Assembly: GCF_016894385.1 (NCBI RefSeq)
Contig: NZ_CP069811.1
Span: forward strand, 348,501 to 412,500
Length of the DNA stretch: 64,000 nt
Direction: 5' to 3'
Source of the DNA: Cupriavidus oxalaticus
Lineage (GTDB): Bacteria; Pseudomonadota; Gammaproteobacteria; Burkholderiales; Burkholderiaceae
Position numbers and translations under genes: made by a program. A model generated the notes under the pieces. It did no database searches and had not been told where the DNA came from. It saw nothing but the letters and a program-made list of their open reading frames with translations. Position 1 is the stretch's first letter. The number at the start of each line of letters is the position of its first letter. Of this stretch, positions 10,901 through 26,530 are shown piece after piece.

Positions 10901-11664
10901 CGGCGCGCGACTTCGGCCTCGCACAAGCCGCCATTGGAGAGCATCAGCATCAGTGGCGCGCGGATGCCCAGGTTCGCCATTTCGCCCTCAAGGCGCTCCA
11001 GGTATCCCGCCATGACGGGCTGGACGTAGGCGTTGGCGCAAACGGTGGCAAAGCGTTCGTATTCGCGGATTTCGGGTGCGACTTCGCAGGATAGGGAAAC
11101 GCGTATCCGGGGACGCCATGCGCGGAGCAGTTCCGCGGCCTTGCGTTCGTGCTCCGGATTGGCAAAGCTATGCAGGAAGCCGATGGCAACAGCTTCCACC
11201 TCTGCTTCATCAAGCGTCGGCAACAGTTCCCGCATGCCCTCCTCATCCAGCGGAACGAGGACCTTGCCGTCTGCCGCCAGGCGCTCCCGCACCGTCAGCC
11301 GCAGGCAACGTGGCACGAGCGGCTCGGGCTTTTCTACATGGAGGTCATAATGGTCGTACCGGCTTTCGTTGCCCATTTCCAGGGTATCGCGAAATCCCTC
11401 TGTCGTCAGGAACGCAATGCGTGCGCCGCGGCGCTCGATGACGGCGTTGGTCGCCAGGGTCGTGCCGTGCACGAGGGTCTTGACGTCAGCCGGTTGAAGG
11501 CCCGCTGCCGCCAGTATCTGGCGGGTACCTTCCACAACCGCAACTTCGGGTGCGTGGGGCGTTGTCAGTACCTTCTGGAAGTGGTGACGCAAGGCACCAT
11601 CGTGAAGAACTTCGAGTGCGAAATCGGTGAACGTGCCGCCAATGTCGATACCGAGCCTTGCCAT
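7918..11664 (-). CDS. Fused HyuA-HyuB hydantoinase/5-oxoprolinase-type protein
   Basis: A 1248-residue ATP-dependent amidohydrolase that combines both subunits of the N-methylhydantoinase/oxoprolinase family. Residues 1 to about 610 form the HyuA part, with MARLGIDIGGTFTDFALE at the start and the second actin-like phosphate loop LLVDIGGTTAKLCF. A low-complexity Ala/Ser/Pro linker lies near residues 615-640. From about residue 700 onward the HyuB part reads IRLQVLWDRLNALVEEQART, followed by DLAAGLFDLEGRLIVQA. The length is close to that of eukaryotic 5-oxoprolinase. Cyclic amides (hydantoins, 5-oxoproline) are the expected substrates; carboxylases of the same superfamily are an alternative. 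Confidence 0.9.
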   Translation of the reverse strand: MARLGIDIGGTFTDFALEVLHDGALRHHFQKVLTTPHAPEVAVVEGTRQILAAAGLQPADVKTLVHGTTLATNAVIERRGARIAFLTTEGFRDTLEMGNESRYDHYDLHVEKPEPLVPRCLRLTVRERLAADGKVLVPLDEEGMRELLPTLDEAEVEAVAIGFLHSFANPEHERKAAELLRAWRPRIRVSLSCEVAPEIREYERFATVCANAYVQPVMAGYLERLEGEMANLGIRAPLMLMLSNGGLCEAEVARRFPVRLLESGPAGGAILAAHVARTLKLERALLVDIGGTTAKLCFIDHGVPQTARSMEVARIARFKAGSGIPLRFPVIELAEIGAGGGSIAHRDTLGRLQVGPESASSVPGPACYGRGGTAPTVTDAHLLLGRIDPDEFGGGKMKLDLRAAERAYQQLGDALGLSAQDAAWSVCEIVDENMASAVREHAVEVGKGLDGRTLIAIGGMAPLHGARLAAKLGLDHVIVPVGAGVGSALGFLRAPVSFEATRSVLLGTAQFDADAANAIADGLIADLRQLVSRAASAQPMTEHRMAWMRYKGQGHEIRVELPSRRFQPNDGEALRRTFEAAYHASYGRTVEAGQVEILGWTIRVEASGPQATSAPTPARPSSASSTGAASPRIRDAFDQGARTWGRSAVHRIADLERADPRPGPALLVTDETTVVVPLGFGYALGQAGDLQLLRNQEHSATGRTDAAAAMPASIRLQVLWDRLNALVEEQARTMMRTAFSPTVREAGDLAAGLFDLEGRLIVQAVTGTPGHVNSLAACTVHFLKKYPIAEMREGDHFITNDPWLASGHLHDITVLSPVFQAGQPIGFFACTCHQVDIGGLGMGPDAKSVYEEGLQIPMLKLARNGRLNEDLLDMVRANVRQPEAVTGDILSYITANESSGRRLVATLDELGEAGLERIGNFVCERSAAGMRAAIGKLPRGTFRHSMALDGYDAPVHIECQVEIAEGKISVTFDGTSAASQRGINLVLNYTRAYAAFGVRAAVAPSVPNNAGSLALVEVNAPVGSILNVERPAPVCARHIIGQFLPEVVLGALAAAMPDSVPAEGAACNWGLQLRGHGAGGQHQGFEILFFNAGGSGARADSDGLSATCFPSGIRSIPVEICENFAPIVIWQKELLPGSGGAGRWRGGLGQRVEVSTRDGSAFQFFGLFDRVRNPARGRNGGMDGAPGWVGLASGQPLRSLGLQTVPAGEVLRIDVPGGAGYGHAKERDDDARRRDIEMGYVAQPEINA

Positions 11665-11972
11665 TTTCTGAAATACTCCTCGCCGTGATGTACGGAGGTT
11701 ATTTCTCGATGGACGAGGAGATATAGCCTCGGCGTACCGTTACTGGATCAATACGATGCACTGCTGCGCATTGTATGAACCGGGGTTTGCCGGGGGAGTA
11801 TCGAATCGGCGGAACTTTGAGGATTGCGGAACTAACGTGCCGGGAGTGTCGTATCCGGCACGCCTGCTGCGGCCAGAAACTGCTCGGGCCGAAGACCATG
11901 GTGTCACGGCTTGAGCGTGCCGGTTTCCCGGCAGGCTCTTCTATCGCATGTGCGCGGCCTGGCCCATCCTGC
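11665..11972. other. Intergenic region without a recognised gene
   Basis: The 308 bases between the hydantoinase start and the stop of the next minus-strand gene contain only short ORFs without family features. It should hold the promoter of the hydantoinase-Bug unit. I see no clear operator or terminator. Confidence 0.4.
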
Positions 11973-12950
11973 TCATTCGACCGTGGCCCCGGACGCCTTG
12001 ACGATGTCCTTCCACTTCAGATAATCGCTCTGGACAAGCTTTGAGAACTCTGCTGCGGACATGGACTTCGCTTCCGCGCCCTGTTCGTTGATGTGGTGGA
12101 TGACGGCTGGCTTGGCCATTGCCTTGTTCACCTCCATGCCGATGCGTTCTACAACGTCCTTGGGCGTCTTCGCCGGCGCGAAAAGCCCATACCAGGAGCT
12201 GACGTCAACCTGCTGGTAGCCGCTTTCTGCAACCGTGGGCACGTCGGGCAAGGCGGAGCTACGCGTTGCCGAGGTGACAGCCATGGCGCGCACCTTGCCC
12301 GCCTTGATCTGCGCCAGCGCCGATGGAACCGAGGAGATCATCACATTCACATTCCCTGCCATGGTATCGACCAGCGCAGCGTTGGAGCCCTTGTAGGGGA
12401 CATGCAGGAGCCTGATGCCGGCGGCCTTGCCGATGATCTCGGCGGCAAGATGGGCCGTGGTGCCGTTGCCCGGCGACGCATACGTGATCGTGCCAGGCGA
12501 TTTCCGCGCGGCGGCCACCAGGTCCGGGAAGGACTTGTAAGGCGAATCCTTTGGCGTGACGATTACCAGCGGGATGTACGCAACGTGGGCGATCGCCACG
12601 AGATCCTTGCGCGGGTCGTAGCTCACGGCCTTGTTCACCCACGGCGCGACCACGACATTGTCCTTCTGCCCCATCACGATGTCGTATCCGGTCGGGGCGG
12701 CCCTGACCACATCGGCAATACCGATGGTCCCGCCGGCGCCGGGCTTGTTGTCCGGGACAAACGTCCACCTGGTGCCTTGGGACACCTCGGTCGCAACGAT
12801 GCGGGACAGGATGTCGGTGCCGCCACCGGGCGGAAACGGGATCACCAGCCGGATTGGCCTGGCCGGCCATGTGGTTTCGGCATGAGACGGGGTGCCTCCC
12901 GCCATCACGCCACACACGAGCAGAATCGCTGCGGTCAGTCTTTTTTTCAT
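11973..12950 (-). CDS. Bug-family (TTT) periplasmic substrate-binding protein
   Basis: A 325-residue Bug receptor. The start at MKKRLTAAILLVCGV is chosen over an upstream in-frame Met because it gives a clean signal peptide and has GGAGAC just upstream. RLVIPFPPGGGTDILSRIV and PDNKPGAGGTIG are the family motifs, and VPYKGSNAALVDTMAG is the usual domain-2 segment. It is probably co-transcribed with the class III CoA-transferase upstream, which suggests uptake of a carboxylic acid that is then activated to its CoA ester. The ligand is unknown. Confidence 0.93.
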   Translation of the reverse strand: MKKRLTAAILLVCGVMAGGTPSHAETTWPARPIRLVIPFPPGGGTDILSRIVATEVSQGTRWTFVPDNKPGAGGTIGIADVVRAAPTGYDIVMGQKDNVVVAPWVNKAVSYDPRKDLVAIAHVAYIPLVIVTPKDSPYKSFPDLVAAARKSPGTITYASPGNGTTAHLAAEIIGKAAGIRLLHVPYKGSNAALVDTMAGNVNVMISSVPSALAQIKAGKVRAMAVTSATRSSALPDVPTVAESGYQQVDVSSWYGLFAPAKTPKDVVERIGMEVNKAMAKPAVIHHINEQGAEAKSMSAAEFSKLVQSDYLKWKDIVKASGATVE

Positions 12951-13030
12951 CCTTGTCTCCTGTTCTCGATATTTCTGAAGCAGCCTGAACGTCGTCAGGC
13001 TTCTATGCATTACCAATGCATTGCGTTACC

Positions 13031-13095
13031 AGCCGGGTATCAGCCGGGTATCAGCCGGGTATCAGGTGGCAGCAGGGTGGTGGTGGCAGCAGGGT
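13031..13095. repeat. Short tandem repeats in leader of Bug gene
   Basis: Three perfect 11-bp copies of AGCCGGGTATC run from 13031 to 13063. Two copies of GGTGGCAGCAGGGT follow at 13065-13078 and 13082-13095. The cluster lies between a CoA-transferase and its downstream Bug gene. The second array ends at the CoA-transferase stop codon, so its number of units may vary by slippage. Confidence 0.8.
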
Positions 13096-14327
13096 CAATC
13101 CATGTGGCCGGCGGCCGGTTGGGCGGGATCGGGCCCACAGTGCCTGGCCACGATGGCATCCACCTCGCTTGCCGAACAGCCGACGGATTCCAGCACCTCA
13201 CGGGTGTGCTCGCCAATGCGTGCGATCGGCATGCGAGGCTGCAGGCGTGCGCCATCCAGGCTGAGCGGCAGCAGGGGAACTTCGGTGATGCTGCCGTCAT
13301 CGACCTGCAGCTTCGCCAGCCCGCCACTTTCCTTGAGATGCGGATCGTCGAACAGCTCTTCGGGACGGGTGATCTCGGCAAACGGTACGTTGCCCGCTTC
13401 AAAAGCGGCCGTCAGCATTTCGGGGCGGAAGGCCTTCAGGGTTTCGGCCAGCGTCGGCAACAACCAGTCCCTTGCCAGTACCCTGTCGTTGTTGGACGCC
13501 AGGCGCCGGTCCTCGAGGAGATCGTTCCGGTCGATGATGTGGCAAAGCGTCCGCCACTGGGCGTCACCGGTGGCGGCAATAAACATCTGGTGGCTGTCTG
13601 CCAGCTCGAACACATCGTAGACAGCCCAGGCGCTGATCCGTGCCGGCATCGGCGCTGCGGGCTTTCCGGTCACGGCGTACTGCTGCATGTGTTGCGCAGA
13701 CAAGAGGACGCAGTTCTCGAAAAGGCCGGACTGGATCTCCTTGCCCGTTCCGGTGGCGTTGCGTTCGTGCAAGGCCGCAAGCACACCAATGGCGCCGAAC
13801 ATGCCCCCCATGATGTCATTGACTGAGCTGCCGGCACGCAAGGGGCGTCCGGCCGGGCCTGTCATGTAGGCGAGCCCCGCCATCATCTGTACGACTTCGT
13901 CGAGAGCAAGGCGCTTTTCGTATGGCCCGCTGAGAAATCCCTTGTGCGAGACATAGATCAGCCTCGGGTTGCGCTTGCGCAGCGTTTCATAGTCCAGGCC
14001 CAGGTCTTTCATGCGGCCAGGCTTGAAGTTTTCAAGAAAGACATCGGCGCTGTCGATCAGCTTCAGCAGGGCTTGCATGTCCTTGCTTTCGCTCACTTCG
14101 ACTGAGATGCTCTTCTTGTTTCGGTTGAATGCCCGAAAGAACCCTGCGCCCGCGCCGAGCAACCGACGCGTGCCGTCCCCTTTCGGCGGTTCGACCTTGA
14201 TGACCTCTGCTCCCAGGTCGGCAAGGACCAGTCCGCATGCCGGGCCCATGACCATGTGGGTCATTTCTATGACCCGGATTCCGCTTAGGGGCAGGCGTTG
14301 TGCTGCCGGAGTGCTTTCGCTACCCAT
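13095..14327 (-). CDS. Class III (CaiB/BaiF) CoA-transferase
   Basis: A 410-residue family III acyl-CoA transferase, moving CoA between carboxylic acids through aspartyl-acyl anhydride intermediates. The N-terminal RVIEMTHMVMGPACGLVLADLGAE pattern (shown in part), VEPPKGDGTRRL and FLENFKPGRMKDLGLDYE are standard. The likely catalytic Asp is D171 in SSVNDIMGGMFG. The interlocked-dimer C-terminal region is present. The gene starts after a 213-bp gap below a LysR regulator on the same strand and precedes a Bug receptor, a common uptake-plus-activation arrangement. Confidence 0.92.
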   Translation of the reverse strand: MGSESTPAAQRLPLSGIRVIEMTHMVMGPACGLVLADLGAEVIKVEPPKGDGTRRLLGAGAGFFRAFNRNKKSISVEVSESKDMQALLKLIDSADVFLENFKPGRMKDLGLDYETLRKRNPRLIYVSHKGFLSGPYEKRLALDEVVQMMAGLAYMTGPAGRPLRAGSSVNDIMGGMFGAIGVLAALHERNATGTGKEIQSGLFENCVLLSAQHMQQYAVTGKPAAPMPARISAWAVYDVFELADSHQMFIAATGDAQWRTLCHIIDRNDLLEDRRLASNNDRVLARDWLLPTLAETLKAFRPEMLTAAFEAGNVPFAEITRPEELFDDPHLKESGGLAKLQVDDGSITEVPLLPLSLDGARLQPRMPIARIGEHTREVLESVGCSASEVDAIVARHCGPDPAQPAAGHMD

Positions 14328-15894: not shown

Positions 15895-17266
15895 TCAGTG
15901 TGTCACCACGACAGTCTTCGAGACGCCCTCGTCCCGCGTGCTCACGGATTTCACCACCAACGCTGCGGCGGCGATAAAGGCAGGGATTGTCAGCAGGGTG
16001 AAGATGACTTCGAAGCTCAAGGCCATGCGCAACAGTTCGGCACCAAGCAAGGCACCGCTGATTCCGCCGAAGCGTCCAATGCCGAGCATCCATGCCACGC
16101 CGGTGGCGCGTCCCTGCGTCGGGTAGAAAGCTGCGGCGAGCGTTGGCATCGACGCCTGGGCGCCGTTCATGACGGTACCGGCCATAAATATCAGCAGTCC
16201 AAGCAATACCTGGTTCGCCGCGCTGCCGTGGCCGACCATGTAGATCAGGACGCCTGCCCCTGCGTACATTATTGCGATGACCTTGTTCGGGTTCATGCGG
16301 TCCATGAGCCAGCCTGCGGCAACGGTGCCGATGCCGCCTCCCAACGGAAACAGGGCGGTCAGGAACGAGGCCCGCTGCAGCGTGAAGCCGGCGTCCTTCA
16401 TCAGCGTGGGCATCCAGCTGGTCAGCAGATAGAAGATGACAAGTCCCATGAAGTATGTCAGCCACAACATGGCCGATCCGAGACGGTATCGCGCAGCGAG
16501 CACCGTGCCGATCGCCGAATCGGCGGAGGGTGTTGCTTCATGGATGCTGAAGTGTTGAGCGCCCGAGACATCAGCCCCCGTCACGCGCTTGAGTATGTCC
16601 CGGATCGTAGCGGGTGGCGCCTGGCGTACCACAAGGTAACGAATTGACTCGGGCAACGCGAATACCAGGATGACCGCCAGCACCAGTGGTACGACCCCGC
16701 CAAATATCAGCACGCTTTGCCAGCCGAAATGCGGGATGATGGCCGCGGAAAAAAAAGCCCCCGGCTGCCGATCCAAGCGGAAATCCGCAGAACATCGTGT
16801 TCACCAGCACCGCACGGCGCCGTGCCGGCGCGTATTCGGACATCAGTGTGACCGCGTTGGGCATGGCGGCGCCCAGGCCGAGACCGGTCAGAAACCGCAT
16901 GGCGGTCAGCCACGCCAGCGAAGGCGCGAACGCGGTGGCCAGGCTGCAGGCGCCAAAGAAGAACACGGACAGGACCAGGACCTTCTTGCGCCCGACGCGG
17001 TCAGCCATCGGTCCGGCAAAGATGGCGCCGAATGCGAGGCCGAACAAGGCGGCGCTCATGACGGGACCCAGGGTGGCTTTGTCGATGCCCCAGTCTTGCA
17101 CCAGCGCGGGAGCAACGTAGCCGATTGCCGCCGTATCGAAGCCATCGATGGCGACAATCAGGAAGCACAGGACCAGGATGAGCCACTGGTAGCGCGAAAT
17201 GGGGCGGTTGTCGATCAATGTCTGCACATCGACGGCAACTGCGGATGGGGAGCTTGTGGTTTGCAT
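15895..17266 (-). pseudogene. AAHS-type MFS aromatic-acid transporter, frameshifted at a poly-T run
   Basis: Two overlapping frames together encode a 12-helix major facilitator of the aromatic acid:H+ symporter (PcaK/BenK) type. The N-terminal part has AIDGFDTAAIGYVAPAL and the loop motif GPMADRVGRKKV. The C-terminal part begins FFSAAIIPHFGWQSVLIFGG. They break at an 8-base T run on the coding strand (16749-16756). Dropping one T restores GGFFSAAIIPHFGW and one 456-residue protein. ATG 17266 has a GGAGAG ribosome site. It may be a true lesion, a slippage-variable switch or a sequencing error. Its neighbours suit uptake of an aromatic acid. Confidence 0.88.
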
Positions 17267-17341: not shown

Positions 17342-18127
17342 TCAGGCGGTTTGCGCAAGAGCCGGCATATACCGGCGGCATGCGTCGCCAAAACGCGTGA
17401 ATAGCGATTGCGAGAGCCGATCTGTGCTTGCGCTGACTTCCGGGTGCCACTGGACGCCGATGGCGAAATCCGCATCCACGACCCGGATTGCCTCGATCAG
17501 TCCGTCGGCATGCATGGCTTCCGCCGCCAGTCCTTCGCCCAGCGTACGAATACCCTGCATATGCAGTGAATTCACGAGTGCCACGTCGGCACGCGTCCAG
17601 TCACGCAGCAGGCCGTCCGGCGCAAGAAAGACGCTGTGCTTGTAGCGGTAGCGCGTGTCGAGCGGATCCGAAAGCTCCTCCCGGTGATCCGCATCGTGGC
17701 CGGCCGCGTAGATATCGGGATGCAGCGTGCCGCCGAACGCGACATTCATTTCCTGGAAACCACGGCAGATCGCGAGCATGGGAAGACCCCGCGACACGGC
17801 GCCGCGAATCAGTTGCATGGCGACGTGATCGCGTGCGGGATCGAGCAGGAAGCCCGCCGGCTCTTCGCCTCCATAGAGGGCCGGCGCCACGTTGGAAGCG
17901 CCACCGGGGAACAGCAGGCCGGACAGCACCCTGAGATAGGGCGTGACATCGGAGATCGCGTCGGTCGCGGGAATGAAAACCGGTGCTACGCCGGCTATGT
18001 CGCTCAATGCACGGCGATAGCTTTCCTTGACGCCATGATGATCGTGGTCCCCGACAAAAAACCTGTCGCAGACAATGCCGACGAGAGGCGGGTTGGCGTG
18101 GCGCGGAGAGCAGGCTGGGGATGTCAT
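17342..18127 (-). CDS. Peptidase C26 / gamma-glutamyl hydrolase-like amidotransferase
   Basis: A 261-residue class-I glutamine-amidotransferase-fold protein of the PuuD/peptidase C26 group, which cleaves gamma-glutamyl amides. The nucleophile elbow is LAICRGFQEMNVAFGG, with the Cys in AICRG. The catalytic His/Glu pair lies in IGVQWHPE, and the oxyanion region is LLFPGGASNV. Starts at 18127 or 18148 are both possible and neither has a clear ribosome site. It sits near a glutamine-synthetase homologue and a Rieske oxygenase. AtdA2/TdnT, of the same fold, occur in aniline gene clusters. A role in releasing glutamate from a gamma-glutamyl intermediate is inferred. Confidence 0.85.
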   Translation of the reverse strand: MTSPACSPRHANPPLVGIVCDRFFVGDHDHHGVKESYRRALSDIAGVAPVFIPATDAISDVTPYLRVLSGLLFPGGASNVAPALYGGEEPAGFLLDPARDHVAMQLIRGAVSRGLPMLAICRGFQEMNVAFGGTLHPDIYAAGHDADHREELSDPLDTRYRYKHSVFLAPDGLLRDWTRADVALVNSLHMQGIRTLGEGLAAEAMHADGLIEAIRVVDADFAIGVQWHPEVSASTDRLSQSLFTRFGDACRRYMPALAQTA

Positions 18128-18253
18128 GGCGGGGCGTCGCTTATGCATGGTGTGGCATGGTGTGCTGTCAGCCGATGGTAGGCGAAGGCATCGCCGGCTT
18201 GAACGCCTGGGCGCCATTTGGCGGCACCCCCATGCAAAACATGATTGGAGAAG

Positions 18254-18282
18254 AAAAAAGGCCGCCCGGAGGCCGAGGCGGC
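18254..18282 (-). terminator. Orphan Rho-independent terminator (minus strand)
   Basis: Read on the minus strand, GCCGCC (from 18282) pairs with GGCGGC (to 18261), and a run of six T (18259-18254) follows. No intact minus-strand gene lies directly upstream; only plus-strand remnants are there. It therefore probably belonged to a deleted gene or acts distally on the AraC transcript. Confidence 0.55.
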
Positions 18283-18456
18283 GAAGTACGGCTAACGTTA
18301 CGTCGGTTCAAGAAACGAACTCTGACAAGCGGCATCGCCGCAAGAAAAGCGCCGCATTCACATGAAAGACCCCGGCTGAGGCCTGTTGCTACATTGCCTT
18401 CCAGTTTTCGGCCAATCACCAAGGATCAAGCGTGACCAGGATTGCAGCTTCCTGAA

Positions 18457-18936
18457 ATGCGTGAGGATGTGCTGAACGCGAAATACGCCGTCCTGGCCAA
18501 ACGCGAGCACACACCCGCGCAGGCGATAGCCTGGGAAACCGTCCAGCGAGAGACCGCCCGGCTGTTCGGGTATGACGTCTTCGTGATCAGCACGCCCATG
18601 TGGAACTGGGGCCTGCCGTATCGGCTCAAGCACTATATCGACGTCATCACGCAGCCGGGCCTCACCTTCAAGTGGACCCCCGAGCGCGGCTACGAAGGGT
18701 TGGTGCTGGGCCGCCGTGCAGTCGTGGCCTACGCCAGCTCCTTTGACTATGGCGATGGCTCTCCGCTGGCGCGCTTTGACCATCAGAAGGGCTACCTTGA
18801 GGACTGGCTGCGCATGATCGGGATCGACGACATCCGCACCATCGCGTTCGGTCCGACCCATCCTGACGCTCCGGCCATGCCCGCCGCCCGCGCGCAGGCG
18901 CTGAAGCAAGCCGAGGCGCTGGCGCGTACGCTCTGA
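18457..18936 (+). pseudogene. 5'-truncated FMN-dependent NADH azoreductase/quinone reductase
   Basis: The 159-residue frame matches the body of AzoR-type flavodoxin-fold reductases: YDVFVISTPMWNWGLPYRLK, then HYIDVITQPGLTFKW and GLVLGRRAVVAYASS. Intact members are about 200 residues. Here the first 40 or so, including the FMN-phosphate loop, are absent, and an in-frame stop lies at 18433-18435. The surviving part is uninterrupted, so loss may be recent. TGA overlaps ATG of the next remnant, preserving an operon junction. Confidence 0.75.
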
Positions 18937-19067
18937 TGCGCGGGCATGCCAGGCATGGATTGCCGCTTGTCGTCATCGTGGCGTTTGCATGCGGTGGCTT
19001 CAGCCTGCGCACGCCGATGACGACGATCGGCGCCGTGCTGCAGCGCGTGCAGGCCGATAGCGCGATG
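18936..19067 (+). pseudogene. N-terminal remnant of CynX/NimT-type MFS transporter
   Basis: The frame starts at an ATGA-type overlap with the azoreductase remnant and encodes one hydrophobic helix (LPLVVIVAFACGGFSLRT) followed by PMTTIGAVLQRVQADSAMSA. This is the opening of cyanate/nitroimidazole-transporter-like MFS proteins. Similarity stops near residue 44, where the sequence runs into the 3' end of the convergent AraC gene. Rearrangement seems to have removed the rest. Confidence 0.6.
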
Positions 19068-19126
19068 TCGGCATGGGCCGTTGGCCGAACCTGGCCTGAT
19101 GCGATGCCCGATGTCCCGGCATGCAC

Positions 19127-19984
19127 TCAGGTGCGCTCCCGGCGGATGCGTGCCGGCGTGTTGCCGGCGATGCGGCGAAAGCAGGTGGTCATATGCGCCT
19201 GGTCGGCAAAGCCGCACTCATGTGCGATCTTGCTCAACGGCGTGCTCGTTTCCACCAGCAGTCGCGTGGCGCGTGTCACGCGCCGCTGCATGATGAAGCG
19301 CAGCGGCGCCTCGCCGGTGGAGGTGCGGAAGGCGCGCATGAAATGCGGAAGGCTGACCTCGGCCAACGCGGCCAGCTCGGTAATGGCGATATTGTCGCCA
19401 AGATGGGCTTCGATGTAGTCGAGGATACGGCGCAGCCGGAAAGGCGCGAGCCCGCCCTTGCAGGGCTGGCGCGGTGCCGGCGTCCCGAGCCTGGCAAGCT
19501 CCACGGCGAGCAGGCCGATCAGGCTCTCGCAGTAGAGCCGCTGGCCGATGCGGGGCGTGACGCATTCCAGCGCGAGCCGGTCGGTGATGGCCCAGATGGG
19601 CTTGTTCTCGAACATGAGGCGGGAGTGGAAAAGCTCCGCGCCATTGGCGGTGCCGCAGGCCTCGGCCAGCAGGGCGTCGTCGAAATGGATCGCCACGCAG
19701 CGAAAGCTGCGAATGAATGGCGTATGGCCGTACGCTTCGCCGCCACGTTCGATCAGGCTGAGGTGATCGCTGCCGCGATAGCCATCGGCAAGCGGTTTCG
19801 ATGGCTTGTGGCGTGCCTCGATGCGGCCTCCCGTCTCGCGCAGGGCAGCTCGCAGGCTGACTCTTTTGGAACCGATCGGGCGGGCGACATCCTGCAATTC
19901 GCCGTACTCGATGACTTCCACTGCCGTGTTTGCCCAGATGCCGGCGGTGCGGCTCTGATGTGCGTTGGTGACGATGTGTACCAC
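19127..19984 (-). CDS. AraC-family transcriptional regulator
   Basis: A 285-residue AraC/XylS regulator. The C-terminal DNA-binding domain has NIAITELAALAEVSLPHFMR as the first HTH, RAFRTSTGEAPLRFIMQRRV, and the second HTH in TPLSKIAHECGFADQAHMTT. The longer ATG-started frame encodes an implausible Arg-rich leader. GTG at 19984 is preferred because AGGAG lies about 7 bases upstream. It is divergent from the Rieske operon across 552 bp and is a candidate activator of it. Its 3' end abuts gene debris. Confidence 0.85.
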   Translation of the reverse strand: MVHIVTNAHQSRTAGIWANTAVEVIEYGELQDVARPIGSKRVSLRAALRETGGRIEARHKPSKPLADGYRGSDHLSLIERGGEAYGHTPFIRSFRCVAIHFDDALLAEACGTANGAELFHSRLMFENKPIWAITDRLALECVTPRIGQRLYCESLIGLLAVELARLGTPAPRQPCKGGLAPFRLRRILDYIEAHLGDNIAITELAALAEVSLPHFMRAFRTSTGEAPLRFIMQRRVTRATRLLVETSTPLSKIAHECGFADQAHMTTCFRRIAGNTPARIRRERT

Positions 19985-20229
19985 GTTCAGTCTCCTACCT
20001 GACCTGACCCCTGACCATGAATACATCCCGGGATCGCAAGGCCGTTCTCGATGCCATGCAAGGCTGCATGGCGCTCGGTTATCGCGACCCCGACGCCCGT
20101 GAACTCGCCGTCCGTCAGCCCCGTATCGAGGTGTTTCGGTTCGCTTCGTTTTCGGGCTTCTGACACGGTGGTTCCCCCTCTTCGGCGTCATGGCGACAGC
20201 GCCAGGCTCGCCGAACTCTTTTACTGCGT

Positions 20230-20237
20230 TGCATACA
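20230..20237. promoter_or_regulatory. TGCATACA element, site 1
   Basis: TGCATACA differs by one base from the palindrome TGCATGCA found at sites 2, 3 and 5. It lies 42 bp (about four helical turns) before site 2. Candidate operator half of the GntR regulator encoded downstream; inference only. Confidence 0.35.
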
Positions 20238-20271
20238 GAGTGTACTAACAAGAGTCCAGAAAATACAGTTA

Positions 20272-20279
20272 TGCATGCA
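20272..20279. promoter_or_regulatory. TGCATGCA palindrome, site 2
   Basis: A perfect 8-bp palindrome in the araC-Rieske intergenic region, identical to the core of the palindrome in front of gntR. Probable transcription factor site by recurrence. Confidence 0.4.
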
Positions 20280-20446
20280 GTCTAGCGAATTCTCCGGTGG
20301 TTAAGGGTAAACACCTAAGATTCCTGTCGGTTGTGAGGGTGACGAAGAAAATCTATATAAAACATGTAGTTATAAGAGTGTTTCAGGCATGATGGCTTGT
20401 GACGTGATGTCACGACATTAAGAAGTTTGGCGCGATGATTGTTTTC

Positions 20447-20458
20447 ATTGCATGCATC
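20447..20458. promoter_or_regulatory. ATTGCATGCATC operator-like element, site 3
   Basis: Ten of twelve bases match the perfect palindrome ATTGCATGCAAT upstream of gntR. It lies about 80-90 bases before the Rieske start codon, at or downstream of the likely promoter, a position suiting repression. Confidence 0.5.
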
Positions 20459-20470
20459 GACTAGCATGGC

Positions 20471-20478
20471 TGCATACA
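20471..20478. promoter_or_regulatory. TGCATACA element, site 4
   Basis: It is spaced 22 bp from site 3 (core to core), two helical turns, so both would face the same side of the helix. This phasing supports a paired operator. Confidence 0.35.
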
Positions 20479-20536
20479 ACGACCAATGCGCAGCGGCCGT
20501 TGGCCATCCAAAACCCCCAAGCAGGAGACCCCGACC

Positions 20537-21853
20537 ATGATGTCCAAGGAACAGAACGACCTGATTACCCGCGTGGGCGCCGATGCGCCGGCGGGCCGTC
20601 TGCTACGCCAATACTGGCAACCCGTCGCGCTTGTTGATGAATTCGAGGGCGCCCGGCCTGTGCGCGCAGTGCGGCTGATGGGTCAGGACTTCGTCGTGTT
20701 TCGCGACGAGCGAGGCCAGTACGGCATGCTCGACCGGGACTGCCCGCACCGGGGTGCCGATCTGAGTTTCGGTCGCCTGGAAGATGGCGGGCTGCGCTGC
20801 CCGTTCCACGGCTGGCTGTTCGACCGCAATGGCACCTGCCTGCAGACCCCGGCAGAGCCGGCGGGCAGCAAGCTGTGCTCGCGTATCAGGCAAAATGCCT
20901 ACCCCGTGGTCGAGCGCAGCGGCATGCTCTTTGCCTTTATCGGCGAAGGCGAGCCGCCGGCATTCCCTGCCTTTGACTGCTTTGTCGCGCCGAGCGAATA
21001 CACCTTTGCCTTCAAGGGGCTGCTCGAATGCAACTGGCTCCAGGCGCTGGAGGTTGGTATCGATCCCGCGCATGCTTCGTTCCTGCACCGCTTTTTTGAG
21101 GATGAGGACACCGCGGAGAGCTATGGCAAGCAGTTTCGCGGTGCGTCGGCCGACTCCGCCATGCCGATCACCAAGGTGCTGCGGGAGTTTGATTGCCCGG
21201 ATATCAGCCTTGCCTCGACCGGGTACGGCATGCGGCTGACGGCGCTGCGCGACCTGGGCGAGGGACAGCAGCATGTACGCGTGACCAATGTCGTGTTTCC
21301 GCAGGCCTTCATCATCCCGATGAGCGCGGAAATGACGATCGCGCAATGGCACGTGCCGATCGACGATACCAGCTGCTACTGGTACGCCATTTTCACGAGC
21401 TTTACCGAGCCGGTAAACAAGCAGCAGATGCGCGACCAGCGCCTGGCGTTGTACGAGCTGCCCGATTACCGGCCGCGCCAGAACAAGCACAACCGGTATG
21501 GCTTCAACCCCTACGAGCAACGCACCAGGACGTACACGGGCATGGGCAACGACATCAACGTCCACGACCAATGGGCGGTGGAATCGCAGGGCGCCATCCA
21601 GGACCGCACGCGCGAGCACCTGGGCACGACCGACAAGGGAATCATTGCGTACCGCAAGCAGCTGGTGGCCGCCATCGAGGCCAACGAACGTGGCGAGAAG
21701 GCGCTGATGATGGTCGATGCGGCCCAGGCAGGCGCTTTGACCGGCCCGCCGTCGATCGACGGCGTAAGCGTTGGCAGCATGGCGCCGGACGACTACTGGA
21801 GCAGCGCCGATGCAAAGCGACGTGCCGAGTCGCAATGGGCATCGCGCGCCTGA
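20537..21853 (+). CDS. Rieske non-heme iron oxygenase, alpha subunit (phthalate-dioxygenase type)
   Basis: A 438-residue ring-hydroxylating or N/O-dealkylating oxygenase of the alpha-only class. The Rieske [2Fe-2S] site is C69-x-H71 (DCPHRGADLS) and C88-x2-H91 (RCPFHGW). The mononuclear iron motif is IDPAHASFLHRFF, with H179 and H184 as ligands and D176 the likely bridging Asp. AGGAG nine bases before ATG 20537 fixes the start. Electrons are probably supplied by the ferredoxin and reductase encoded downstream. No beta subunit gene is present. The intervening glutamine-synthetase homologue suggests that an amine or its gamma-glutamyl amide is the substrate. Confidence 0.93.
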   Translation: MMSKEQNDLITRVGADAPAGRLLRQYWQPVALVDEFEGARPVRAVRLMGQDFVVFRDERGQYGMLDRDCPHRGADLSFGRLEDGGLRCPFHGWLFDRNGTCLQTPAEPAGSKLCSRIRQNAYPVVERSGMLFAFIGEGEPPAFPAFDCFVAPSEYTFAFKGLLECNWLQALEVGIDPAHASFLHRFFEDEDTAESYGKQFRGASADSAMPITKVLREFDCPDISLASTGYGMRLTALRDLGEGQQHVRVTNVVFPQAFIIPMSAEMTIAQWHVPIDDTSCYWYAIFTSFTEPVNKQQMRDQRLALYELPDYRPRQNKHNRYGFNPYEQRTRTYTGMGNDINVHDQWAVESQGAIQDRTREHLGTTDKGIIAYRKQLVAAIEANERGEKALMMVDAAQAGALTGPPSIDGVSVGSMAPDDYWSSADAKRRAESQWASRA

Positions 21854-21949
21854 CCCGGCAACCCGCAGCACAACCCTTCAACGATCGAGGCGGCCCAGCC
21901 GCGTCGTGCATCGCCTCGCGCGATGTGCGGCGCGGGAGGCCGGACCCAT

Positions 21950-23386
21950 ATGGCATTTGTAGACAAATTCGGCCTCTGGTCCGATGCACAGGCGCACGCA
22001 GCCGATGAGGTGGCCAAGCGCCTGAGCGCGGGTGACATCGAGGTCGTGCGCTTCTCCTTCCCCGACCAGCATGGGGTATTGCGCGGCAAGGCGCTGGTGG
22101 CATCGGAGGCCATCAAGGCGCTGCGCAGCGGGCTCAACGTCACGACGACGCTGTTCGCCAAGGACACGTCGCATCGCACCGTCTTCCCGGTATTCAGTAC
22201 CGGCGGCGGCTTCGATATTCCCGGCATGCAAGGCGGCGCGGACGTGACGCTGATCCCTGACCCCACCACCTTCCGCGTACTGCCATGGTCGCCAAATACG
22301 GGATGGGTGCTGTGTGATCCGTATTTCCAGGACGGCCGCGCGGTGCCGTTTGCCACCCGGCGCGTCCTGCGCAATGCCGAGCAGCGGCTGGAAGCCGAAG
22401 GCTACCGGCTCGTCACCGGGCTTGAAGTCGAATTCCATGTGTTCAAGCTCTTGCATGAGCACATGACGCCCGACGATGCCGGCCAGCCCGGCGAGCCGCC
22501 CGAGGTTGGCCTTCTTTCGCATGGGTACCAGTTCCTGACCGAACTGCGCTATGACGCGAGCGAAGCGGTCATCGAACTGATCCGCAAGAACGTGCAGCAA
22601 CTGGGACTGCCCGTGCGTTCGCTCGAGATCGAGTTCGGTCCGAGCCAGTTCGAGTTCACGTTCGCGCCGGCTTCACCCTGCGAAACGGCCGACGCCATGG
22701 TGCTGTTCCGCAGCGCGGTCAAGCAGGTATGCAAGCGGCACGGCTATCACGCCACATTCATGTGCCGGCCCAGGATCCGCAACGTGGTGTCCAGTGGCTG
22801 GCACCTGCACCAGTCGCTGCAGCGCGTTGGCGATGGAAGCAACGCGATGGTGCCGGAGATTGCCGGCGACGATCTGTCGCCGGTGGGCCGTCACTACCTC
22901 GGCGGCCTGCTGGCGCACGCGTGCGGCGCCACCGCATTCTCCACCCCGACGATCAACGGCTACAAGCGCTACCGCGCCTACTCGCTGGCGCCGGACCGCG
23001 CCATCTGGGCGCGCGACAACCGGGGCGCGATGCTGCGCGTACTGGGCGGCATGGGCGATGCGGCCACCCGTATCGAAAACCGTGTGGGCGAGCCCGCCGC
23101 CAATCCGTACCTGTACCTCGCATCGCAAGCCATTTCGGGGCTCGATGGCATCCAGCGCCGGCTGGATCCGGGACCGTCCGCTGACTCTCCCTACGAGACG
23201 CCGGCGCCATGCCTGCCGAAGACGCTGGAGGAAGCGCTGGAATGCCTGCATCAGGATACGGTGCTGCGCGAGGGCATGGGCAATGGATTCGTGGACTACT
23301 TCTGTCACATCAAGCAGGCCGAGATCGACCGCTTCAACCTCGAAGTCAGCGACTGGGAACAGCGCGAGTACTTCGATACGTTCTGA
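21950..23386 (+). CDS. Glutamine synthetase homologue (gamma-glutamyl-amide synthetase-like)
   Basis: A 478-residue ATP-dependent ligase with the glutamine synthetase core. Visible are the metal site GLEVEFHVFK, the EFGPSQFEFTFAP segment, the ATP/ammonium region SSGWHLHQSL and the glutamate-binding NGYKRYRAYSLAPDRAIWAR. An N-terminal PDQHGVLRGKAL beta-grasp region is present. The divergent motifs and the location in a catabolic operon argue against housekeeping GlnA and for ligation of glutamate to an amine, as in AtdA1/TdnQ, IpuC or GmaS. GGGAGG precedes ATG 21950 by 10 bases. The amine is unknown. Confidence 0.88.
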   Translation: MAFVDKFGLWSDAQAHAADEVAKRLSAGDIEVVRFSFPDQHGVLRGKALVASEAIKALRSGLNVTTTLFAKDTSHRTVFPVFSTGGGFDIPGMQGGADVTLIPDPTTFRVLPWSPNTGWVLCDPYFQDGRAVPFATRRVLRNAEQRLEAEGYRLVTGLEVEFHVFKLLHEHMTPDDAGQPGEPPEVGLLSHGYQFLTELRYDASEAVIELIRKNVQQLGLPVRSLEIEFGPSQFEFTFAPASPCETADAMVLFRSAVKQVCKRHGYHATFMCRPRIRNVVSSGWHLHQSLQRVGDGSNAMVPEIAGDDLSPVGRHYLGGLLAHACGATAFSTPTINGYKRYRAYSLAPDRAIWARDNRGAMLRVLGGMGDAATRIENRVGEPAANPYLYLASQAISGLDGIQRRLDPGPSADSPYETPAPCLPKTLEEALECLHQDTVLREGMGNGFVDYFCHIKQAEIDRFNLEVSDWEQREYFDTF

Positions 23387-23407
23387 TGCCATTGCAGCGA
23401 GGTTGTT

Positions 23408-23731
23408 ATGCCGACAATTATCTACGTCCTGAAGGACGGTAACCGCAAGACCGTGGCGGCAGCCAACGGCAAGACGCTGATGGAGGTGGCCATTGCCAAC
23501 AATGTGCGTGGCATCGATGCGGAGTGCGGAGGCTGTTGCTCGTGTGCCACGTGCCACGTCTATGTCGACGAAGCCTGGCTTGGCAAGCTGCCGGCGCTTG
23601 ATGACATGGAGAACGAGCTGCTCGACGGCGTGGCTGCCGAGCGCACCGGATCGAGCCGGCTGAGCTGCCAGATCATCGTCAACGACGCGCTCGACGGCCT
23701 GGTGGTGCGCATCCCTGAAACGCAGGGGTAG
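23408..23731 (+). CDS. Adrenodoxin/putidaredoxin-type [2Fe-2S] ferredoxin
   Basis: A 107-residue vertebrate-type ferredoxin. Cluster ligands are C40, C46 and C49 in ECGGCCSCATCHVYV and C87 in RLSCQII. Two further cysteines (C43, C44) lie inside the loop. It shuttles single electrons from a FAD reductase to an oxygenase. The gene lies 21 bases after the glutamine-synthetase homologue and 3 bases before the reductase, so the three are one transcriptional unit with the Rieske gene. Pairing a Rieske alpha subunit with this ferredoxin class is known for three-component oxygenases such as dicamba demethylase. Confidence 0.93.
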   Translation: MPTIIYVLKDGNRKTVAAANGKTLMEVAIANNVRGIDAECGGCCSCATCHVYVDEAWLGKLPALDDMENELLDGVAAERTGSSRLSCQIIVNDALDGLVVRIPETQG

Positions 23732-23734
23732 GCC

Positions 23735-24979
23735 ATGTCCGACCTTGTCATCATCGGCGCGTCCTACGCGGGCACGCAGCTCGCCCTGGCGGCACGCGCC
23801 AACGGCTTCACCGGAACGATCACCATGGTTGGCGACGAGCCGCATCCGCCTTACCAGCGTCCACCGCTGTCCAAAGGCTTCCTGCGCAACGAGGCCGACG
23901 CGTCCAGCCTCGCGCTGCAGTCGCCCGAGCGCTTCGCCGAGGAAACCGTCTTGCTGCGCACGGGCGTCACTGCGCTTCGCGTCGACCGTGATGCGCGCAG
24001 GGTAGAGCTGTCGGACGGCAGCCGCATCGTCTATGGCCATCTCGCGCTGACTACGGGCGCCCGCTGCCGAACGCTGGGCTGCGAGGGCGCGGGCCTTGGC
24101 AACATCCACTATCTGCGCGGGCTTGCCGATGCCTGCGCGATCCGCGATGCCGCGGCCCGGGCGCGTCGCGTCGTGGTCATCGGTGGCGGCTTCATCGGGC
24201 TTGAGGTCGCCTCGGCGTTGCGCTCGCTGGGACTCGATGTGACAGTGATCGAAATGCAGGACCGCCTGCTCAAGCGGGCCGTGCCACCGCTGATTTCCTC
24301 ATTCCTGATGCAGGCGCACAGGGACAATGGCGTGCGCTTTTGCCTGTCCTCATCCGTGCGCCGGATGGTCGGTACACAGGTGGTCGAGGCGGTCGAACTG
24401 GAGTCGGGTGAGGCCATCGATGCCGATATGGTGGTGGCGGGCCTGGGCGTGATCCCGAATGTCGAGCTGGCGCAGGCATGCGGGCTGCTGGTCGATAACG
24501 GCATCGTGGTCGACCGCCACGCGCGCACCAGCGATCCGCGCATCGTGGCAGCCGGCGATTGCGCTTCGTATCCGAATCCCTGGCTGAACACGTCGGAACT
24601 GCCTGATCAAGCCGGCCGATGCGTGCGCGTCGAGTCGATCCAGAGTGCCAATGACCTGGCCCGGGTCGCAGCGGCGACCGTGGCAGGGTGCGCCACGGCC
24701 TACGACGCCGTGCCATGGTTCTGGTCGGATCAATACCACTACAAGCTGCAAATGGCGGGGACGTCGGCCGCCCATGACCAGGCCGTGGTGCGCGGAGACA
24801 TAACGGCCGGGAAGTTCACGGCGCTCTATCTGCGCGCCGGCACGCTCATTGGTGCGGATTCGATCAACCGGCCGGTCGACCATATGGCGGCGCGCCGCCT
24901 GATTGCGGCGCGCGTACGGCCGGACCCGGGCTTGCTGCAGGACGACACGGTCGCGTTGAAGTCGCTGGTGCCCGCCTGA
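23735..24979 (+). CDS. FAD-dependent NAD(P)H:ferredoxin reductase
   Basis: A 414-residue reductase of the putidaredoxin-reductase type. The FAD dinucleotide fold is VIIGASYAGTQLALAAR at the N-terminus and the NAD fold is RVVVIGGGFIGLEVASAL near residue 150. RPPLSKGFL, the FAD-contacting RIVAAGDCASYPNP and the C-terminal reductase domain are present. It would complete the chain NAD(P)H to FAD to [2Fe-2S] to Rieske oxygenase. It is the last gene of the tightly spaced unit; 129 bases separate it from gntR. Confidence 0.93.
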   Translation: MSDLVIIGASYAGTQLALAARANGFTGTITMVGDEPHPPYQRPPLSKGFLRNEADASSLALQSPERFAEETVLLRTGVTALRVDRDARRVELSDGSRIVYGHLALTTGARCRTLGCEGAGLGNIHYLRGLADACAIRDAAARARRVVVIGGGFIGLEVASALRSLGLDVTVIEMQDRLLKRAVPPLISSFLMQAHRDNGVRFCLSSSVRRMVGTQVVEAVELESGEAIDADMVVAGLGVIPNVELAQACGLLVDNGIVVDRHARTSDPRIVAAGDCASYPNPWLNTSELPDQAGRCVRVESIQSANDLARVAAATVAGCATAYDAVPWFWSDQYHYKLQMAGTSAAHDQAVVRGDITAGKFTALYLRAGTLIGADSINRPVDHMAARRLIAARVRPDPGLLQDDTVALKSLVPA

Positions 24980-24980
24980 A

Positions 24981-25028
24981 CGCTCCGGGTTGCGCTCCGG
25001 GTTGCGCTTCGGGTTGCGCTTCGGGTTG
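24981..25028. repeat. Four 12-bp tandem repeats after the reductase gene
   Basis: Two copies of CGCTCCGGGTTG followed by two of CGCTTCGGGTTG sit immediately after the reductase stop codon and end 16 bases before the gntR palindrome. They are direct, without spacers. The unit length suggests slippage expansion. Confidence 0.85.
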
Positions 25029-25043
25029 GTGTACCATTGCCGC

Positions 25044-25055
25044 ATTGCATGCAAT
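25044..25055. promoter_or_regulatory. ATTGCATGCAAT palindrome upstream of gntR (site 5)
   Basis: A perfect 12-bp palindrome 54 bases before the chosen gntR start. GntR/FCD regulators commonly bind short palindromes of this kind and autoregulate. Its core recurs upstream of the Rieske gene, tying the two promoters together. Confidence 0.55.
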
Positions 25056-25108
25056 TGTGTGCCAACCGGTATGCAATGCGGCCCGACTTTCCGCTGGACG
25101 CGAGTGAG

Positions 25109-25837
25109 ATGGAATCCCACCAGACACGTGTATTGGTACAACTTCGGGACTTGATCCTGAAAGGCGAGTTCGAGCCCGGGGCCCGGCTCGCGGAAATTCC
25201 GCTGGCCGAGAAGCTCGGCGTCTCGCGCACGCCGGTGCGGCTTGCGCTCGCGTCGCTGGAGCAGGAAGGCCTGATCGAGCCATCGCCGAGCAGCGGCTAT
25301 ATGATGCGGCGCTTCACCCCGCGCGAGATCCAGGACGCGATTGCCGTGCGCGGACACCTGGAAGGCATGGCGGCGCGGCTGGTGGCCGAACACGGGTTGT
25401 CGCGGCAGCTGTCGCTGGACCTTCAGGATTGCCTGCGTGAAGGCGACCGCGTGCTGACGAAAGCGCAGCTCGATTACGACGACTACGTCGCGTACAGCAA
25501 CATGAACGACCGCTTTCACGCGCTGATCGTGGACGGCAGCGGCAACAGCGCCCTGGCGCGCGCCATCGAGCTGAACAACCGCCTGCCGTTTGCCGCGGCC
25601 AGCGCCATGCTGCCGATGCAGTCGGCGGTGGCCGAGGGTGCGCAGTGGCTGGTGTATGCGCACCGGCAGCACCACAGCCTGTTCGATGCCATGCAGCGCG
25701 GCGAAGGGACGCGCGCGCAGGCGCTGGCGACGGAGCACGTCAACGTGGCAAGGCTGAACCTGGAAACCGCGCTGGACCGGCCCGAGCAGGCATCGCAGGT
25801 GATGCCCGCGATGCGGCTGTTCGTGACGGCTGCCTGA
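25109..25837 (+). CDS. GntR-family regulator (FCD subfamily)
   Basis: A 242-residue regulator. The N-terminal winged HTH reads LAEIPLAEKLGVSRTPVRLA, followed by LEQEGLIEPSPSSGYMMRRF. The rest is an all-helical FCD effector domain with the expected metal or ligand His residues (FHALIV, HRQHHSLFDAM). ATG 25109 is chosen for normal family length; ATGs at 25076 and 25037 are in frame and none has a strong ribosome site. It follows the oxygenase electron-transfer genes and probably represses that operon and itself through TGCATRCA sites. Confidence 0.88.
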   Translation: MESHQTRVLVQLRDLILKGEFEPGARLAEIPLAEKLGVSRTPVRLALASLEQEGLIEPSPSSGYMMRRFTPREIQDAIAVRGHLEGMAARLVAEHGLSRQLSLDLQDCLREGDRVLTKAQLDYDDYVAYSNMNDRFHALIVDGSGNSALARAIELNNRLPFAAASAMLPMQSAVAEGAQWLVYAHRQHHSLFDAMQRGEGTRAQALATEHVNVARLNLETALDRPEQASQVMPAMRLFVTAA

Positions 25838-25861
25838 GCCGCTTGGCGCCGGATCTGCGTA

Positions 25862-25896
25862 ACAAGGGCCGCGTCAATGCGGCCCTTGTGCTTTTC
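25862..25896 (+). terminator. Rho-independent terminator after gntR
   Basis: Perfect 11-bp arms (ACAAGGGCCGC at 25862-25872, GCGGCCCTTGT at 25879-25889) enclose a 6-base loop, followed by a short T-rich tail GCTTTTC. It ends the gntR transcript and isolates the next gene. Confidence 0.85.
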
Positions 25897-26032
25897 GGTT
25901 TCGATGCCGGACTGCCAGCGCGCCACGGGACGACAGGCAGGTGAAATGAATGATTGCCTGGCTCAAGGCTTTGCAGGGACGGCTACCTATACTCGTGAAC
26001 ACCGACGACATGCCGTCTCTGGAGACCTGATC

Positions 26033-26530
26033 ATGACAATTCCCCCCAGCACATCGACTACCCGCGCCCAACTGAAGACTGCCGCGATCCGCCTGTTGAA
26101 CGCCGTTGGCGACAGGCCACTAGGCCCCGATACGGAGCGGTGGCTGAACGAGACCTTTCCCCCCGGCAGCGAACTCTACGAAACGCTGGCCACGCTGATA
26201 CGCGCGGGGGAGAAGGAGGGCTGGGCCTGCAATGTTGAAATCACCGGTCCCGAATATCGCCGCAGTCCGATCTACGACGCCAGCGACGATACCCGGGGGT
26301 TCAGCATCAACAGCGTCTACATGGACAACCTCGTTGGGCAGTATCACGCCCATCCCAACGGCGAGATCAATATGATCGTGCCGCTGACGCCGGGCGCGAA
26401 GTTCTGCGGTCACCTCGCTGGCTGGACAGCGCCGGAGCCGGGCAGCGAACACTTTCCCGAAGTCACAGACGGGACCGCCATCATGCTGTACTTCTTGCCG
26501 CGCGGAGAAATTACCTACACGGGCAAATGA
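26033..26530 (+). CDS. DUF4863 protein, 4-hydroxylaminobenzoate lyase-like
   Basis: A 165-residue protein. The C-terminal half is a small cupin-like barrel with MDNLVGQYHAHPNGEINMIV, FCGHLAGW and IMLYFLPRGEITY. This pattern matches the DUF4863 family as I remember it, which includes PnbB, the lyase converting 4-hydroxylaminobenzoate to protocatechuate and ammonia. The His-x-His-Pro-x-Gly-Glu stretch could bind metal. GGAG at 26021-26024 supports ATG 26033 over an upstream Met. A terminator separates it from gntR. Its presence suggests amino- or nitro-aromatic chemistry; specificity is unproven. Confidence 0.65.
   Translation: MTIPPSTSTTRAQLKTAAIRLLNAVGDRPLGPDTERWLNETFPPGSELYETLATLIRAGEKEGWACNVEITGPEYRRSPIYDASDDTRGFSINSVYMDNLVGQYHAHPNGEINMIVPLTPGAKFCGHLAGWTAPEPGSEHFPEVTDGTAIMLYFLPRGEITYTGK

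Follow-up and report, generated by a model that had tools for sequence, protein, structure and literature searches.

Excerpts of the report on Hydrogenophaga intermedia PBC describe a sad operon comprising sadA, encoding a 4-aminobenzenesulfonate 3,4-dioxygenase, sadB, encoding a glutamine synthetase, sadC, encoding a ferredoxin, and additionally sadD; according to the same excerpts, the operon is conserved across various Hydrogenophaga, the sulfocatechol genes occur in H. intermedia only, and the original substrate was probably some naturally occurring compound similar to sulfanilate (PMC5632844). Within a window of 64,000 nucleotides from the soil bacterium Cupriavidus oxalaticus (the whole stretch analyzed, positions 348501–412500 on contig 1 of the two-contig genome), a gene cluster encoding a Rieske oxygenase, a glutamine synthetase (GS)-like ligase, a ferredoxin and a ferredoxin reductase was identified, which probably works like the Sad system, as judged from its genes. 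The sadD product is taken to be the reductase, and the gene order A-B-C-D of the sad operon is suggested by its lettering.

For the related NpaA system, excerpts of the published work describe the ligase as essential and the amidotransferase as dispensable, and the gamma-glutamyl conjugate as the direct substrate of the oxygenase, yielding a ring diol product (PMC11335346). A precedent for the role of a hydrolase is the removal of gamma-glutamylanilide by an amidotransferase, as stated in part of a further report (PMC4539516). Based on homology, glutamylation followed by dioxygenation is very probable for the Cupriavidus cluster. A Sad-type gamma-glutamylating Rieske dioxygenase system converting 4-aminobenzoate to protocatechuate is cautiously favored for this Cupriavidus lineage, and the chance that 4-aminobenzoate is the main substrate is estimated to be about even.

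Conserved pairing of the oxygenase and ligase genes

An earlier reading of the same DNA, made from the letters without database searches (the sequence-only reading), had named five parts of the system, i.e., a Rieske alpha subunit, a GS homologue, a ferredoxin, a reductase and a gamma-glutamyl hydrolase. All five were recovered by Pfam matches, the hydrolase gene (Peptidase_C26, 192 bits) being located approximately 2.3 kb from the oxygenase gene on the opposite strand. The closest named homologues of both oxygenase and ligase originate from Cupriavidus.

By means of a profile built from 20 relatives, 579 stretches of the sequence collection were found to encode a relative, and the best 80 of these 579 are referred to as collection loci. 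In all 80, the oxygenase homologue precedes the ligase gene on the same strand, with 6–261 bases (median 96) between its end and the ligase. Among 300 genomes of the order surveyed at an expect value (E) <= 1e-120, the oxygenase was detected in 19 and the ligase in 17; both genes are adjacent in 16 of the 19 oxygenase-bearing genomes, with reverse order in one (G033). The exceptions are G160, whose two genes reside on separate contigs, and two genomes for which no ligase was found at E <= 1e-120, namely G075 and G185; G185 encodes a 34%-identical ligase next to the oxygenase. Three ligase paralogues of 45–48% identity (G033, G072, G263) have no adjacent oxygenase at this threshold. Furthermore, 13 plasmid records feature an oxygenase relative (E <= 1e-100), and all 12 listed recur in the ligase list. 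The conservation of the pair far exceeds chance. Of the two findings named as refuting the sequence-only reading, a ligase inside the GlnA or PuuA clades and a pairing not conserved in other genomes, neither was obtained.

A homologous pair, with 65% identity for the oxygenase and 60% for the ligase, is plasmid-borne in N. resinovorum SA1, which degrades sulfanilate; this pair serves here as a stand-in for the PBC proteins. Among the 120 listed relatives of the SA1 ligase, none carries a Hydrogenophaga name, most rows being given without an organism name. Since its host degrades sulfanilate and a maleylacetate reductase gene lies 2 kb away, the SA1 pair is presumed to represent the sulfanilate oxygenase of this strain. 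A dihydropteroate synthase gene (folP) is located approximately 8 kb from the pair on SA1 plasmid pSA3 (L101:3361-4191); this enzyme uses 4-aminobenzoate and is the target of sulfa drugs.

The oxygenase open reading frame (ORF; 20486–21853, plus strand) matches PF00355 (74 bits) and LigXa_C PF19301 (95 bits), and its start near 20537 was deduced from homologue lengths and a GGAG motif preceding the ATG. Among solved structures, its closest relatives and best structural matches are dioxygenases for phthalate and isophthalate (PDB 7fjl, 7v25, 7v28, 9ina, 9ioy; approximately 30% identity), including structures with bound phthalate, isophthalate and terephthalate. No beta subunit match was obtained among the ORFs scanned, which included only part of the short ones, in agreement with the sequence-only reading of a phthalate-dioxygenase type without a beta subunit. 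Residues D193, H196, H201 and D361 are invariant in 118 of 118 aligned relatives, and the Rieske Cys and His residues are kept except in two clipped rows (L040, L065) and in L136, for which the Rieske domain is annotated as a gene of its own. Moreover, R202, R218 and R233 are retained in all 80 collection loci and in 36 of 38 other rows; the exceptions, L010 and L144, represent one paralogue of the host genome without a ligase beside it. These three arginines possibly bind the glutamyl moiety or the carboxylate. R265, present in 118 of 118 relatives, corresponds in the alignment to R244, a substrate-binding residue of phthalate dioxygenase; a second such arginine of that enzyme, R207, has no clear match here. 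The paralogue represented by L010 and L144, a second Rieske oxygenase of the host genome (G000, C2:2029696-2030877; 38% identical), is encoded approximately 7 kb from the protocatechuate 3,4-dioxygenase genes and without a GS-like ligase.

Affiliation of the ligase and its amine tunnel

The ligase ORF (21923–23386, plus strand) matches PF00120 with 268 bits, its start being placed near 21950 from homologue lengths. The top solved-structure match is NpaA1 (8wwu; 452 bits, runner-up 197), which is likewise the top structural match of the AlphaFold model (template modeling score 0.86). The models are of middling quality (predicted local distance difference test, pLDDT, 75 for the ligase and 68 for the oxygenase, and below 50 for ligase residues 82–95, which belong in part to the tunnel loop) and are therefore not used for statements on residue geometry.

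A tree of 59 rows was calculated by a quick method with Shimodaira–Hasegawa-like approximate likelihood ratio test (SH-aLRT) support only. It contains 44 rows carrying Lys80; 41 of these, including the window ligase and its SA1 homologue, form one group (SH-aLRT 85), and the TdnQ/DcaQ/NpaA1 types form another (SH-aLRT 85–90). Three Lys rows (L104, L136, L138) branch at an unresolved fork beside these two groups. GlnA types are far from the window ligase, two further GS genes of the host group with E. coli GlnA, and PuuA represents a very long separate branch of unsure placement. The score against the PuuA model (234 bits, cut-off 650) and the 25% identity to PuuA are low, and the flap Glu of GlnA is replaced by L355, as it is by Leu in NpaA1; Asn or Met occupies this position in eight other Lys-bearing rows. 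A housekeeping (GlnA) or polyamine (PuuA) role was ruled out by the tree, the sub-cut-off scores of curated models and the lost flap Glu.

According to excerpts of the NpaA1 study, loss of the flap Glu and an extra amine-tunnel loop are features of glutamyl-organic-amine synthases (PMC11335346). The tunnel loop (residues 73–86) is present in the window ligase and absent from three GlnA-type rows; being apart from GlnA, lacking the flap Glu and possessing the loop, the enzyme resembles the glutamyl-organic-amine synthases NpaA1, AtdA1, TdnQ and DcaQ. The proposal of the sequence-only reading that an amine is glutamylated before or during oxidation gains weight from this affiliation, from NpaA1 as best match, from a position outside both the GlnA and the PuuA clade and from the conserved pairing, the mechanism as such being deduced from homology. 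On a Streptomyces tendae plasmid (L139), genes for a carbon-nitrogen hydrolase and an amidotransferase adjoin that of a related ligase (48%), and an oxygenase alpha subunit is not annotated within 5 kb; this ligase possibly represents a different use of glutamylation.

Residues V68–M81 of NpaA1 align with residues 73–86 of the window ligase. As stated in excerpts of the NpaA1 study, exchange of F75 for Ala nearly abolishes aniline activity, and a change of M81 shifts substrate preference (PMC11335346). The F75 position is K80 in the window ligase, and Lys was found there in all 80 collection loci, in each of the 120 relatives listed for the window ligase and each of the 120 listed for the SA1 ligase (240/240 among the matches listed). 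In the full alignment, 114 of the 132 rows show Lys; these row sets overlap. The 18 non-Lys rows are nine ligases linked to alpha/beta oxygenases (Phe in seven, Val in one, His in one), the Nostoc and Streptomyces ligases (Phe), three distant ligases of the order, PuuA and three GlnA types. Position 84 is His in all 80 collection loci, and position 86 aligns with the specificity residue M81. Based on this Lys80/His84 pattern versus Phe/Val/His in the alpha/beta-linked enzymes, the ligase family is read as preferring an anionic aromatic amine.

Substrate clues, proposed route and alternatives

The DUF4863 gene, regarded in the sequence-only reading as a hint of an aromatic N-substrate, belongs to the Pfam family PnbB, 4-hydroxylaminobenzoate lyase (PF16155, 182 bits; ORF 25877–26530, plus strand). 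This hint is now firmer, and the substrate class is confined to aminoarenes with a carboxylate or sulfonate group, 4-aminobenzoate being the most likely. Among 60 Cupriavidus genomes, the ligase (E <= 1e-100) was detected in nine and PnbB in 42 (53 copies); in seven of the nine, PnbB is on the contig of the ligase at a distance of 2.7–11.7 kb. The naive chance of this linkage is 0.003 per locus (P ~7e-17), a value that overstates significance since the strains are related. The nine loci are the window, seven stretches, one of which (L158) stops at a contig end, and a C. pinatubonensis plasmid (taken as G342 from matching coordinates). A nitroreductase is linked in six of nine, a PcaK-type transporter in six (split in the window) and a PuuD-type hydrolase in five. 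Linked PnbB was also observed in Burkholderia, Paraburkholderia, Caballeronia and Methylobacterium, and PnbB-bearing loci occupy three separate places in the ligase tree, namely Cupriavidus, Burkholderia/Paraburkholderia/Caballeronia and Methylobacterium. In the 80 collection loci (tblastn, E <= 1e-7), PnbB was found in three, a nitroreductase in four, a PcaK-type transporter in five, an amidotransferase-fold hydrolase in 10, the ferredoxin in 22 and branched-chain-type ATP-binding cassette permeases in 61.

In the proposed route, the ligase would use adenosine triphosphate (ATP) and L-glutamate to glutamylate the amino group of 4-aminobenzoate, giving gamma-glutamyl-4-aminobenzoate. Electrons would flow from NADH via the flavin adenine dinucleotide (FAD)-containing reductase and the [2Fe-2S] ferredoxin to the one-subunit Rieske oxygenase, which would perform 3,4-dioxygenation at the amide-bearing carbon and its neighbor. 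The diol would then lose glutamine and re-aromatize to a catechol, namely protocatechuate, which would be cleaved by the product of pcaHG elsewhere in the genome; the host pcaH scores above the curated cut-off (364 vs 296 bits), with a pcaG-like frame adjacent. The C26 hydrolase presumably returns surplus or toxic gamma-glutamyl conjugate to the free amine, and PnbB would represent a parallel branch leading from 4-nitrobenzoate via 4-hydroxylaminobenzoate to the same protocatechuate.

Several observations weigh against this route. PnbB is unlinked and encoded elsewhere in the genome in two of the nine Cupriavidus loci (G004, G341), the window PnbB is just 48% identical to that of C. pinatubonensis, the window cluster contains no nitroreductase gene (the nearest in the genome is 44% identical), and the hydrolase is absent from the stretch read in four of nine loci. 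In the window, pcaK falls into two frames, and the flavodoxin-type ORF is truncated. Moreover, since 41 of 44 Lys rows group together and three are placed at the unresolved fork, Lys80 counts as no more than a few evolutionary events, and Lys is possibly the older of the states. Outside the Burkholderiaceae, to which 75 of the 80 collection loci belong, zero PnbB or PcaK matches and one nitroreductase match were obtained; another substrate may therefore be used there, or the clue may hold only locally.

Some of these points bear on whether the same mechanism serves another anionic aromatic amine, such as 3-aminobenzoate, aminosalicylate, aminophthalate or similar. K80 and H84 argue only for an anionic substrate, relatives of the oxygenase accept ortho-, meta- and para-dicarboxylates, and 77 of 80 collection loci lack a PnbB match; however, para-substituted benzoates are the compounds after which PnbB and PcaK are named, and both are linked in Cupriavidus as well as in Burkholderia relatives, so that another amine is considered unlikely, though worth keeping in mind. 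The lack of a PnbB match in these 77 loci also counts against a single linear route, in which the oxygenase would N-oxygenate its substrate to 4-hydroxylaminobenzoate for conversion to protocatechuate by PnbB. Gamma-glutamylation would block the nitrogen, and excerpts on the related NpaA system report a ring diol product from the gamma-glutamyl amide (PMC11335346); despite the linkage of PnbB in seven of nine Cupriavidus loci, such a route is very improbable. Sulfanilate (4-aminobenzenesulfonate) 3,4-dioxygenation would agree with the gene kinds of the sad operon as given in excerpts of its description (PMC5632844) and with the identities to the SA1 plasmid pair. It is nevertheless improbable for the window, as no sulfocatechol-pathway gene was detected among the ORFs scanned (the whole genome was not searched for them) and as the SA1 ligase is the sole one among the 120 listed relatives with Asn at both 84 and 86. 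Because of this unique Asn84/Asn86 combination, with 86 being the NpaA1 M81 specificity position, sulfanilate use is suggested to be a derived state. Finally, the split pcaK and the truncated flavodoxin ORF could indicate a cluster decaying in this strain without present function. The oxygenase, ligase, ferredoxin, reductase, hydrolase and both regulator genes are open and show family matches, the checked catalytic residues are present, and a sequencing error could account for the pcaK split; hence, decay is hardly to be expected.

Conversion of 4-aminobenzoate to protocatechuate is accordingly retained as the preferred reading for the Cupriavidus lineage. More tentatively, and with the chances slightly against it, a widespread, unrecognized aerobic 4-aminobenzoate route is put forward, in which a Lys-tunnel ligase and a three-Arg phthalate-type oxygenase would yield protocatechuate and glutamine, and of which sulfanilate degraders would be a recent offshoot (H84N and T86N in SA1). 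A glutamylating 4-aminobenzoate dioxygenase was not found described in open-licence literature searched by titles and abstract starts, which is weak evidence of absence. 4-Aminobenzoate is a folate precursor. If true, the catabolism of a vitamin precursor, nitrobenzoates and dye-derived amines would be joined in one enzyme family of many Burkholderiales and Bradyrhizobium.

Further features of the locus and comparison with known systems

Coordinates of the cluster features, ordered by position, are compiled in the following table.

Table 1. Features of the gene cluster in the Cupriavidus window (window coordinates).
Feature	Position	Strand	Basis or remark
PcaK-type aromatic-acid/H+ transporter (major facilitator superfamily), two frames	15898..17233 (15898-16782 + 16727-17233)	-	adjoins hydrolase
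Gamma-glutamyl hydrolase, C26/PuuD type	17342..18217; ORF probably over-long at N-terminus	-	Peptidase_C26
Flavodoxin_2-family ORF	18436..18936	+	without first 21 residues of its relative
AraC-family regulator, divergent from oxygenase	19127..20251; homology from 19984	-	HTH_18
Rieske oxygenase alpha subunit, SadA-like, phthalate/isophthalate-dioxygenase type	20537..21853	+	Pfam Rieske + LigXa_C
GS-like enzyme, putative gamma-glutamyl aromatic-amine ligase (SadB-like; K80 in the tunnel)	21950..23386	+	Pfam Gln-synt_C
[2Fe-2S] ferredoxin, adrenodoxin/iron-sulfur cluster (ISC) type, SadC-like	23408..23731	+	Fer2
FAD/NAD ferredoxin reductase, SadD-like	23735..24979	+	Pyr_redox_2 + Reductase_C
GntR/FCD regulator of cluster	25037..25837	+	Pfam
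Terminator-like hairpin, probable operon end	25862..25889	+	12-pair stem, T-rich tail
PnbB-family 4-hydroxylaminobenzoate lyase	26033..26530, start inferred; ORF opens 25877	+	PF16155

The ferredoxin matches Fer2 with 40 bits, its top NCBIfam match being fdx_isc (56 bits, under the cut-off of 132), and the reductase matches Pyr_redox_2 (222 bits) and Reductase_C (107 bits), with the AndAa reductase as top NCBIfam match (346 bits, under the cut-off of 650). The hydrolase possesses the aligned Cys and a His-x-Glu motif and is 38% identical to E. coli PuuD, and it shares 80% identity with its C. pinatubonensis counterpart. In C. pinatubonensis, an AraC regulator with 84% identity neighbors the cluster, and the PcaK-type transporter is encoded by one gene; the window transporter is split over two overlapping frames. 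A GntR relative occurs in 27 of 80 collection loci, divergent and upstream of the oxygenase-ligase pair in 26 of them. The hairpin has the longest stem of seven scan sites (6.3 expected in shuffles) and stands between the GntR gene and PnbB, so PnbB probably has a transcript of its own, which starts near 26033; membership of PnbB in the oxygenase operon was considered doubtful owing to this hairpin. Scans of the window yielded zero Rfam matches, zero tRNA genes and zero promoter sites versus 1.8 expected.

Upstream of the cluster (7918-14327), the window encodes a fused hydantoinase/oxoprolinase A+B, a TctC-type binding protein and a coenzyme A-transferase III. Among the collection loci, an AMP-ligase gene is present in 34 of 80, and 20 of 80 feature a gene for a LuxI-type autoinducer synthase at 3.9-9.8 kb beyond the ligase (Bradyrhizobium and one Frankia-titled record; e.g., L091:16289-16963). 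The record titled Frankia sp. RB7 (L095) carries a Bradyrhizobium-like version of the locus and is probably a mislabelled or mixed assembly.

Compared with the Puu pathway, the cluster shares a PuuD-type hydrolase, and its ligase is far from PuuA, on a separate long branch. The fold of the oxygenase resembles that of phthalate and isophthalate dioxygenases; a GS-like partner is not known for these enzymes. The aniline, chloroaniline and naphthylamine clusters (tdnQTA1A2B, atdA1-A5, npaA1-A5) likewise combine a GS-like ligase glutamylating an aromatic amine before Rieske oxidation with a hydrolase of the class-I amidotransferase fold. However, they use an alpha/beta oxygenase with a ferredoxin--NADP reductase, the nine alpha/beta-linked ligases are 43-49% identical and carry Phe, Val or His instead of the tunnel Lys, and their hydrolase belongs to another subfamily (weak partial matches only). 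Direct membership of the window cluster in the tdn/atd clusters was ruled out by the different oxygenase and hydrolase. In Rhodococcus gordoniae DND3 (L133), an alpha/beta oxygenase, a GS-like ligase, a separate ferredoxin and FAD reductase, an amidotransferase and catA occur together; separate electron carriers thus also accompany an alpha/beta oxygenase. A 3-aminobenzoate (mab) cluster is known from Comamonas; the literature search did not recover it.

The tdn and atd clusters, which the sequence-only reading took as nearest precedents, yield this place to the sad operon, in which, according to excerpts of its description, genes for a dioxygenase, a glutamine synthetase and a ferredoxin form one operon together with sadD, matching the gene set of the window (PMC5632844). 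Judged against these excerpts, the window differs in its neighbors, i.e., the C26 gamma-glutamyl hydrolase, the PcaK-type transporter and PnbB. The sad-like gene set as such is already known, and the new contribution is the substrate evidence from these neighbors and from the tunnel residue; this locus and its relatives offer a concrete, assayable candidate, 4-aminobenzoate, for the natural substrate, with the residues named.

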